From Candidatus Hydrogenedentota bacterium (GTDB taxonomy: Bacteria > Hydrogenedentota > Hydrogenedentia > Hydrogenedentales > SLHB01), in the NCBI GenBank assembly GCA_020848835.1, contig JADLHJ010000012.1, positions 1 to 64,000 on the forward strand: a DNA stretch of 64,000 nt. The letters run 5' to 3'. Under the pieces are notes generated by a model. That model saw nothing but the letters and a program-made list of their open reading frames with translations. It searched no databases and was not told the origin of the DNA. Shown in pieces: positions 24,777 through 31,018 of the stretch. Every line of letters starts with the position of its first letter. Position 1 is the first letter of the stretch. The position numbers were made by a program, and so were the translations under genes.

Positions 24777-25235
24777 ATGAAAGCGTCGATCACCAAACTT
24801 GTCGACGTCATCCTCAGACGAATAGAAGAATATCCCGACGGAATCCCCACGGAAACCGGCCTCCGATCATGGCTTGCCGGCCAGGGTTACAACAAACGCG
24901 ACATTGATGCGGCGATGAAACTCATCGCCCCCCGCTTCACGCAGCCATCGGTACGCGAGGAAAACCGCCCTTGGGTCGCGCGATCCTTGTCTTTGTTCGA
25001 GGAATACAAGCTCACACCTGAAGCGCGCAACGCATTGACACGTCTGGAGTTCTACGGTCTGCTCGACCCCTATGAGCGCGAGGCTATTTTCGACCGCCTC
25101 AGCCATTTTGACGGAGAAGTTGGCCTCGATGAGCTCGACTACTTGCTGTCTTGGGTAGTTTTCGGGAACCGCGACTTCGAGTCCCAACAGACCATGTACG
25201 GGGTAATGGACGGCGAAGGCGGCGTCTTTCACTAA
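24777..25235 (+). CDS. smg: Smg/DUF494 family protein
   Basis: A 152-residue acidic helical protein matching the Smg (DUF494) family: an N-terminal helix VDVILRRIEEY, a middle LTPEARNALTRLEFYGLLDP, and a C-terminal EVGLDELDYLLSWVVFG. It is often found near DNA processing (dprA/smf) and topA genes in bacteria; topA lies 3.4 kb downstream here. The molecular role is not established. GGAG lies 7 bases before the ATG. Confidence 0.82.
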   Translation: MKASITKLVDVILRRIEEYPDGIPTETGLRSWLAGQGYNKRDIDAAMKLIAPRFTQPSVREENRPWVARSLSLFEEYKLTPEARNALTRLEFYGLLDPYEREAIFDRLSHFDGEVGLDELDYLLSWVVFGNRDFESQQTMYGVMDGEGGVFH

Positions 25236-25312
25236 AAGGTCCCGGGACTTTCATTACCGCCGCGTTTACGCCATCTTAGAATTAATCGAATCCGAAGAAG
25301 TCATATCATATT

Positions 25313-25348
25313 AAAAGCGCCCAGCGCGGATGACGCGCCGGGCGCTTT
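25313..25348. terminator. Bidirectional terminator between smg and the chemoreceptor gene
   Basis: AAAAGCGCCC and GGGCGCTTT arms flank an inner AGCGCG/CGCGCC stem. An A-run on one side and a T-run on the other allow use from both strands; the flanking genes converge. Confidence 0.75.
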
Positions 25349-25366
25349 GTGCTTAGCGACCACTCC

Positions 25367-28081
25367 TTAGAAGTCGTTCATGTCCGATTCATCCAGCGGG
25401 ATTACCTTTTCGGGCCCCGCGAGGCTACGGCCGGCCGCGCGTCCCGCGGCCGCCTTGGCCTGCGGTAATGCCTTGTGCTTACGGCGTTCAAGCGTCGACG
25501 CCGGGGACCCGTTTCCGCTCGTACCGTTGGCGCCGCGCACCATGATGACCAATTCCGTCACCATGCGCTGCATCTCGTTTGCCTGCGCCGTGAGTTCTTC
25601 TGCCGCTGCGGCCGATTCTTCAGATTCGGCGGCGTTCTTCTGGGTCACCTGATCCATCTGTGAGACCGCGCCGGTAATCTGCTCGATTCCACGCGCCTGC
25701 TCGTTGCTTGCCGCCGCGATTTCACCAACGAGATTGTTTACGCGGGCAGCCGCCTGCGCGATCTCGCCCAGCGATTCCTCGACTTCGCGGCTGATTTGGA
25801 CGCCGCTTTCCGAGCTTTGCACTGACCCTTCGATCATGGACGACGTGGACTTCGCTGCTTCCGCAGAGCGTTGCGCGAGGTTGCGAACTTCCTCAGCAAC
25901 CACGGCAAAACCCTTGCCTGCATCGCCTGCGCGCGCTGCTTCCACGGCCGCATTCAGCGCCAACAGATTGGTTTGGAATGCGATCTCGTCGATCGTCTTG
26001 ATTATTTTCGCCGTTTCGTCGGAAGACTTTTTGATTTCGTCAATCGCCGAGCTCATCTTCTTCATCGCGACGACACCCTTGTCCGCGCACGAGTTTGCTA
26101 CGTTTGCAAGGTTCTTCGCCTGCGTTGCATTCTCCGCGTTCTGTTTTGTCATCGACGTAAGTTGTTCCAGCGATGCGGAAGTCTCTTCCAAGCTCGATGC
26201 CTGCTCGCTCACCCCCGCGGCCATGCCCTGGCTCGATTGTGAAACCTGGCCCGCCGCGGCGCCCACTTGATCCGCGTTCGAGTTGAGTGCGGTGATGATG
26301 CGATTGATCGGCCCCGTGATCCCGCGGGTGATCGTCACGGCCAGTACCACTGCGATTAGTACTGCCACAGCCAATCCAACCATCATGGTAGTGGAGGCCG
26401 TGTTCAACGCAGACGCCGCTCCCGCTGTTCTCTCGGTTGCTGTCTTCACACCAGACTCCGCGACCTCCTTGGCAAGAGCCAATACCTGCTCGCCAGCTTT
26501 GCCGCGCTCGACGCTGATTTCATCCAATTTTTTCCAGTTTGCAAGCAGGCTGGTAAGCGCGGTCTTGTACTGATCCGCAACGGCCTTCGTTTCGTCGATT
26601 TCTTTCAAGTTCGCTTCGATGTACGTAATTTTGCGAAGATTTTCCAGCGTGCTGTCGATTTTTTCGAAATTGCCCAGTGCCTCTTCGGCCAACTTCATAT
26701 CGCGCATGCCTTGCGCCTTCCAGACGGCGATACGCGTGGCATTTCCCAAATCGATGACTTCATTTGCATAAGTAATCTTCTGAAGCCGCTCAATCAACTT
26801 GTCTGCCGGGGCCATCTCGCCTGCTGGCCGCGCAACCATTGTTTTGTGATAGGCATTTATCGGCGTACCCAGCAACTTAGCTTCCTCTGGGTGCGCACCC
26901 AGCCACTCGGTTGCGCCATCTTCGATGTGATATACGGCGCCGACCACTTTGATTTTGCCTGCCTTGGCGGCTTCTTGAACCGGACCGCTCTGCGTGAGCA
27001 AGGCCGCTATGGATTGGTTGACGTTGGTTCGAATTGCGGCGTCGATTAACGCGTCGCTGGATAAGGAAGCATTTGATTTCTTTGCCGCGTCTACAGCGGG
27101 TTTTATCAAGTCAACGAGTTCGGCCACATTGCCATCAACCTGCGCGTTCGTTGCGGCCGCGGTGACAGCGCCACACTTGGAGTGGCCCATAACAACAAGT
27201 AAGGGCGTTTTCAGGTGCTCGATCCCGTACTCGACTGACGCCAGCTCGCTAAGGTCGCAGACATTACCAGCAACTCGAACTACAAAAAGATTGCCAATGC
27301 CTTGGTCGAACAGCAACTCGATTGGCACTCGCGAGTCGGAACAAGATACAAAGGTCGCAATCGGGTGTTGTCCGTTCGCTGCAGTGTCCGAGCGACGGGC
27401 CTGACCGGAATCCGGGTGGGTACTCTTTCCGGCTACGTACCGCGCATTCCCTTCCTTCAACAACCCCAATGTGGCGTCGCCCTCGGGACATGGGGCAGCA
27501 TCCACCGGACTGACTTTGGACTCCGCGGATTGTTCAGGTTGGACGGCGGCAGTGTCTTTCTCTCCTAAGATTTCCCCCTGCATCCGTTTGTATTGCGAAC
27601 TTACAAAAGCGTTGCATGTCTCGATATATTTCGCCGCAGCTTCGTTTAGCGCCGCGCGATCGGTATTCATTGCCTGCACGGTGGTGTGGGTTTGGCTCGC
27701 CAAATCGTTGTAACGGGAAACGTTCTGTTCAATATTATCTGCCGCAGCGTTCAAAGCTGCCAAAGTCTCACTGCTTTTTCCTAGAGCTTGTGCTTCGGCG
27801 ATGTGGTTCTTCACTTCCGCTAGGTTTTTTTCCCCGTCGGCCCAGAATTTCTCGTCTTCGCTGAGCGCGTACCCCCGCATGGCATACATGGTCTCGGAGG
27901 CGAATCGTTCGAGGTCCGTCGCGATGCCTACTTGCGGCATGCTTTCTTTAGAGAGTTTATCCGCGTCACCTCGAACACTTGTCATATTCCAAACTGCCAT
28001 TCCCCCTAATGCGATGGCAATCAGGACTAGCATCGAGAAGCCTAAGGTAATACGCGTCCCCAGTTTCATTTTGTGCAACAT
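25367..28081 (-). CDS. Methyl-accepting chemotaxis protein with an inserted beta-carbonic anhydrase domain
   Basis: 904 residues. TM1 is about 13-33 and TM2 about 566-586, with a HAMP-like region after TM2. The conserved signalling hairpin is around 699-745 ([20 protein letters not shown], then [18 protein letters not shown]). The periplasmic part is a long helical bundle (34-175 and 425-560, like HBM sensors), but residues 198-412 are a complete beta-carbonic anhydrase domain. Zinc ligands C247, H300 and C303 and the D249/R251 dyad are in CSDSR and GHSKC, and the fold continues through GAVYHIEDG. The enzyme would therefore face the periplasm. The start is ATG 28081 with GGGGGA 5 bases upstream. 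There is no C-terminal pentapeptide. It is likely a CO2/bicarbonate-linked receptor; whether it catalyses or only binds is unknown. Confidence 0.9.
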
Positions 28082-28210
28082 AGTGTCCCCCAAATCGTTG
28101 TGCAATCCCCCAATCGACGAAATACTCCCCAAGAGCTGGCGGGCGCCAAACAACATGGGAAAAGTCACAGCGGGGCAATTTGGAAGGATGAGGTTCTCAA
28201 AGCAAACGAT

Positions 28211-28249
28211 CCGATCCGAGCACACCTTAACTCAAGTGTGCTGGATCGG
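28211..28249. promoter_or_regulatory. Palindrome upstream of the chemoreceptor gene
   Basis: CCGATCC-g-AGCACAC (28211-28225) pairs with GTGTGCT-GGATCGG (28236-28249), giving 14 bp of stem with a one-base bulge and a 10-base loop. It sits 130 bp upstream of the receptor start, so it could be an operator or leader hairpin. Confidence 0.5.
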
Positions 28250-28527
28250 GAGAACGAGTCCAGCTACGCCTAGCAAAGTTCCGACCTAATAAAGGCCGAA
28301 CTCGCATATCGCACGCCCCGTTAACTCCAAATATTCAAGTTGTAAAACGCTTTTTCCTTGTTGAATATAGCACTTATTGTATGTTTTAGCAAGAAAACAA
28401 TTTCCCGTGTCTCGCGCTGACAAGCGTTCTCAGCCCTTTCAGCAACGGATTGCGCTAAAGTGGGACAGAAATGACCGCCATTTATCCCGTGTTAGGTCTG
28501 TAATGCCCGAGACGACTGACGCCGAGG

Positions 28528-28556
28528 TTGCCGAGACCGGCCACGTCGGGTATAGT
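28528..28556 (+). promoter_or_regulatory. Candidate sigma-70 promoter of topA
   Basis: TTGCCG (28528-28533), a 17-bp spacer and TATAGT (28551-28556), 72 bp before the topA start. Confidence 0.6.

Positions 28557-28627: not shown

Positions 28628-31018
<2,391 letters not shown>

Follow-up and report, generated by a model that had tools for sequence, protein, structure and literature searches.

The window analysed here, a 64,000-nucleotide stretch of one contig from a Candidatus Hydrogenedentota bacterium, encodes on its minus strand a chemoreceptor (MCP) that carries a complete beta-carbonic anhydrase (CA) within its sensor region (Table 1). The frame of 904 codons runs from 28081 to 25367 with no internal stop; an upstream in-frame GTG would add 48 residues if used. 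A full chemoreceptor with an inserted beta-CA had been proposed in a sequence-only reading of this DNA, and the Pfam matches bear this out. The Pro_CA match spans profile positions 1–155 of 156 (141.8 bits against a cut-off of 25.7), and the signalling part can be aligned to the rod of Escherichia coli MCP I (Tsr). The HBM match covers profile positions 5–144 of 254, that is, the second half of the helical bundle only, and a weak match of the same kind is found in a CA-less paralogue in genome G008, which belongs to another genus of the same family. A C-terminal motif of the VIPLDxxDMxxF type (window 25370–25405) is conserved in the CA-less paralogues and ends many MCPs of the group. This tail may be a docking site for adaptation enzymes.

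Table 1. Features of the CA-chemoreceptor gene and its surroundings (window coordinates; residues are those of the 904-aa receptor).
Feature	Position	Strand	Remarks
DUF494 (Smg-like) neighbour gene	24777..25235	+	PF04361
Segment from smg/DUF494 to topA promoter	25237..28543		Missing in congeneric G001 and in G008
Hairpin 3' of CA-chemoreceptor gene	25314..25348	.	-30.4 kcal/mol, z -4.0
CA-chemoreceptor gene	25367..28081	-	904 aa, ATG at 28081
MCP signalling domain, residues 657-813	25643..26113	-	MCPsignal (PF00015) 657-813, 9.4e-46
TM2, residues ~566-593	26303..26386	-	Kyte-Doolittle TM-like segment 558-593
Second helical half of bundle, residues 425-562	26396..26809	-	HBM 427-566, 5.9e-8; homologous to CA-less paralogues
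Linker 2, residues 406-424	26810..26866	-	417-429 predicted disordered; 27% identical to G008
Beta-CA domain, residues ~200-405	26867..27484	-	Pro_CA 242-390, 2.9e-41; 2a5v by sequence and fold
Zinc ligand C303	27173..27175	-	
Zinc ligand H300	27182..27184	-	
R251, Asp/Arg dyad	27329..27331	-	
D249, Asp/Arg dyad	27335..27337	-	
Zinc ligand C247	27341..27343	-	
Flexible linker 1, residues 173-199	27485..27565	-	pLDDT <50
First helical half of periplasmic bundle, residues 37-172	27566..27973	-	4HB_MCP_1 4-145, 5.7e-6, slightly short of cut-off; predicted helices to 171; alignable with CA-less paralogues
TM1, residues 5-36	27974..28069	-	Kyte-Doolittle
topA neighbour gene	28628..31018	+	91% identical to G001 copy

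The gene stands alone between the DUF494/smg gene and topA, whose product we take to be DNA topoisomerase I. The smg and topA genes are almost adjacent both in G001, a congeneric genome, and in G008, and approximately 3.3 kb is extra in the window lineage only. This segment is either a recent insertion in the window lineage or was lost in both G001 and G008; the CA-chemoreceptor gene of G008 is sited elsewhere. Because it is missing from G001, the CA-chemoreceptor is dispensable. The hairpin downstream of the gene is likely a two-way terminator, and a promoter scan of the gene region gave matches no more numerous than in shuffled sequences.

The CA domain is most similar to secreted beta-CAs of the Rv3588c (2a5v)/PRK15219 kind. 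Residues 10–193 of the 215-residue CA piece align with Mycobacterium tuberculosis Rv3588c (2a5v; 4.5e-37), spanning the CSDSR and GHSKCGAV motifs. The zinc ligands and the Asp/Arg dyad named in the sequence-only reading (C247, H300, C303; D249, R251) are all present and are invariant in 22 homologues, and the domain limits given there as residues 198–412 were right as to place and have been refined to approximately 200–405. A structure prediction, suggested earlier as a check, was made with AlphaFold as a single chain; the CA core is modelled with a pLDDT of approximately 90–97, whereas residues 173–199 and 417–429 fall below 50. The top Foldseek match of the model is again the M. tuberculosis enzyme 2a5v (TM-score of 0.85 by target). 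This agreement is consistency with the CA fold rather than evidence of activity, since the programme probably met such folds in training. A degenerate CA is ruled out by the conservation of the active site and by a low dN/dS, and the domain is presumed to be catalytically active and zinc-loaded. Fold, zinc ligands and dyad are thus common to the window CA and the secreted enzymes; the latter are free enzymes, whereas the window CA is part of a receptor.

Only two TM-like segments were found in the receptor (residues 5–36 and 558–593), flanking the sensor. CA lies between them, and a periplasmic location is therefore supported if the usual MCP topology applies. The placement is further supported by eight N-terminal fusions described below, in which CA comes after a signal-peptide-like segment. 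When seven CA-less receptors from related genomes are aligned with the window receptor, CA takes the place of a short linker between a helix ending near residue 171 and one starting near residue 425. An insertion between two halves of a periplasmic bundle, as first proposed, thus agrees with both the TM-like segments and the alignment. The predicted helices 50–99 and 104–171 form one hairpin after TM1, and by helix parity CA would be inserted at the membrane-proximal turn of the bundle rather than at its tip. The bundle itself is modelled with modest confidence (pLDDT of approximately 80–89 for residues 80–170 and 45–59 for residues 420–600) because the alignment given to AlphaFold consisted of CA homologues only.

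The half-bundles are HBM/4HB-like. The order TM1, periplasmic helical bundle, TM2 and cytoplasmic MCP signalling rod is common to the window receptor and to HBM/four-helix-bundle chemoreceptors such as McpS, McpK and CtpL of pseudomonads or Tar and Tsr, and the second half of the window bundle is recognised by the HBM profile. Unlike these, the window receptor has a complete CA in the membrane-proximal turn, and no HAMP domain was detected in it by Pfam at E values up to 1. The HAMP linker is frequent in MCPs and is not obligatory.

Further CA-chemoreceptors were sought with the CA piece in approximately 1,240 genomes, among them draft assemblies, forming four phylum samples. Three fusions (the window, G008 and G018) were found in 68 genomes of the window's own phylum, which suggests itself as a small one, as all 68 sit in one order. 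Four (L005 in genome G100, G270, G145 and G282) came from 388 genomes of the phylum to which the Verrucomicrobia MAG L005 belongs, one (G580) from 395 genomes of the phylum that includes the MAG behind L004, and two (G1071 and G1011) from 392 genomes of the phylum represented by the Planctomycetota MAG L006. The total is at least 10, with no internal stop in any and with the zinc ligands and the Asp/Arg dyad preserved in each of the ten; it is a lower bound, the fusions having been recognised from long open frames around matches at E ≤ 1e-25 or 1e-40. The combination is therefore rare but not unique. Long frames around CA in L133 and L137 lacked an MCP motif and were rejected as fusions; in them, a GC-rich frame seems to read through into a secreted CA of the ordinary kind. 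In a plasmid search, the 20 matches listed were annotated as carbonic anhydrase or unannotated, and two of them overlap a neighbouring MBL-fold gene.

The CA-chemoreceptors have two layouts. In the window and in G008, a full-length homologue with CA at the same place (53% identity over residues 4–904), the order is TM1, half bundle, CA, half bundle, TM2 and signalling domain. In the other eight (G018, L005, G270, G282, G145, G580, G1071 and G1011), an intact beta-CA and an MCP signalling region are likewise joined in one protein, but the order is signal peptide, CA, linker, TM, TM, helical region, TM and signalling domain, and the fusion events are others. The linker is often His/Ala-rich; Pfam was run on five of the eight. 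Genome G1011 also encodes a tandem double CA (L135:3793-5700), which has a His-rich linker and a TM at its C-terminus but lacks an MCP part; it is possibly a picture of the membrane-anchored CA before fusion.

The sequence-only reading had found this domain combination unfamiliar. No published MCP with a CA domain was found in the open-licence literature, subscription papers and domain-architecture databases being outside that search, so the unfamiliarity stands to that extent; the combination is, however, not a one-off, given ten cases in approximately 1,240 genomes and several separate fusions. Chemoreceptor and beta-CA are each known, and their union appears to be undescribed, although it may be listed somewhere without comment, for example in domain databases.

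The phylogeny is most simply read as repeated joining of CA to chemoreceptors, in two geometries. Forcing seven fused CAs into one clade lowered the likelihood by 115.7 units (p-AU 3.75e-6), for a group chosen after the first tree was seen. In a quick tree with ten fusions, five changes are needed, at least three of them forced by strongly supported branches. A single ancient fusion is thus rejected by the AU test for the CA domains, while fission of fused genes could mimic some of the gains.

In both layouts, the conservation of CA is close to that of the signalling domain, whereas the bundle drifts. Between the window receptor and that of G008, CA is 64.7% and the signalling domain 63.6% identical, as against 39.5% for the first helices, 46.4% for the second helices, and 36% and 27% for the two linkers. 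Between G270 and G282, the corresponding identities are 89.1% (CA), 96.2% (signalling) and 53.6% (TMs and bundle), with dN/dS of 0.10, 0.08 and 0.39 respectively (Nei-Gojobori, one pair). These sequence comparisons show that CA is maintained by purifying selection. Since enzymes are generally conserved, this speaks for maintenance and does not establish a sensing role.

The link to chemotaxis that had been proposed is upheld by the intact signalling domain and by homologues that lie beside cheW and in che clusters. In G008, cheW is followed by a CA-less HBM-type MCP and then by the CA-chemoreceptor. In G018, a cheW gene lies on either side of the CA-chemoreceptor gene; Pfam identifies CheR, CheD and a response regulator in the cluster, and a further frame, read by eye, is presumably CheB-like. 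A CheW-like frame, also read by eye, follows the CA-chemoreceptor in G270. The window genome encodes four MCPs. Its CheW gene clusters with genes for two CheA-type proteins, CheR and CheB are encoded in that stretch too, and a flagellin-family protein shares a contig stretch with another MCP.

On balance, the window receptor is held, with slightly better than even confidence, to be an enzyme-coupled chemoreceptor for CO2/bicarbonate, in which the tethered CA sets the pH or bicarbonate level at the receptor. The periplasmic beta-CA, flexibly tethered by the bundle, would equilibrate CO2 and H2O with HCO3- and H+ at the membrane surface, so that a CO2 gradient would produce a fast local shift in proton or bicarbonate level. 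This shift would be read by the four-helix/HBM bundle, or by pH-sensitive residues of the bundle and TM2, and from there the signal would travel through TM2 and the MCP signalling domain to CheW/CheA and on to the flagellar motor. That the receptor reads the product rather than the shape of CA is an inference, as is the direction of the behavioural response. A shared chemical product is favoured over rigid mechanical coupling because the linkers are predicted to be flexible in the window receptor and because a long linker and an extra TM are present in the eight N-terminal fusions. The broader proposition, that bacteria repeatedly made CO2-taxis receptors by fusing periplasmic CA to chemoreceptors and thereby equipped the receptor with the maker of its own stimulus, is put at even chances.

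Parts of this scheme have precedents. In CO2-responsive squid sperm, a membrane-anchored CA has been proposed to speed acidification (PMC5636881). An external CA there makes CO2 felt as acidity, which resembles the working proposed here, although in animal cells and with separate proteins rather than one fused bacterial protein. Like the receptor proposed here, TlpA of Helicobacter pylori is a chemoreceptor, with a reported role in bicarbonate attraction; bicarbonate and arginine are reported as its ligands, with no enzyme, and direct sensing as against pH is unsettled (PMC5245789). In E. coli, pH sensing is mediated by Tar (PMC9600550). The HBM domains studied have organic acids or a binding protein as ligands (PMC5126104), and the bundle may therefore sense something other than the CA product. 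Further points against the scheme are the rapid divergence of the bundle, which gives no hint of a fixed bicarbonate pocket, the absence of the gene from G001, and the lack of a consistent association with RuBisCO.

The CA could instead be the ligand-binding sensor itself, with bicarbonate, zinc or another anion in a CA dimer shifting the half-bundles directly and catalysis being incidental. The window CA joins a membrane-ward helix to an outward one, so a dimer could move both, and dimer stabilisation by ligand is known for HBM/4HB domains. Both junctions are, however, predicted to be disordered and are poorly conserved, and coupling of this kind is impossible for the eight N-terminal fusions, where a long linker and a TM part CA from the bundle; this explanation is considered unlikely. 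So, to a slightly greater degree, is a membrane-docked housekeeping CA that captures CO2 or buffers pH at the array while the bundle senses an unrelated ligand. Closely related stand-alone secreted CAs are common, and the double CA of L135 has its own C-terminal TM and no MCP part, but repeated fusion to receptors and adjacency to cheW would be odd for mere anchoring, and it is the ligand bundle that drifts whereas CA is kept.

It is quite improbable that the beta-CA fold acts on another substrate, such as carbonyl sulphide or carbon disulphide, to which the receptor would respond. Carbonyl sulphide hydrolase does have the beta-CA fold and gives a weak match (3vqj, 2.5e-4), far below the solved CAs, which match best in sequence and fold alike. 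As to an artefact of assembly or annotation, the window genome is in draft form, in 120 contigs, but the same insertion in G008, the independent N-terminal fusions in eight further genomes and the lack of a stop in any of them, together with the short linker at this place in CA-less relatives, exclude misassembly for practical purposes.

To our knowledge, no bacterial chemoreceptor is known to sense CO2 through an enzyme of its own. If the enzyme-coupled scheme is true, it would provide a molecular entry point to bacterial CO2 taxis and would mean that an enzyme can be the sensory input of a chemoreceptor. It would also define a class of enzyme-coupled chemoreceptors, through whose enzyme CO2, or the acidity that CA makes, may be sensed, and would put a genetically encoded CO2 sensor on offer. 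Given the repeated fusion and the strong constraint on CA, the scheme lends itself to direct testing. A link to carbon fixation by RuBisCO was also considered and was not consistent: the window genome has a weak partial match, and two of the ten genomes have clear matches, possibly to RuBisCO-like proteins.

In another of the four MCPs of the window genome (L104:2003-3979, contig C35), a CZB zinc-binding domain (PF13682, 1.3e-9, residues 166–229) directly follows 4HB_MCP_1 (10–147) and lies well ahead of the signalling domain, possibly within the periplasmic part, although the usual description of CZB is as a cytoplasmic domain. A third MCP (L103:7754-9559, contig C24) has a Tll0287-like sensor domain (PF11845, 4.2e-32).
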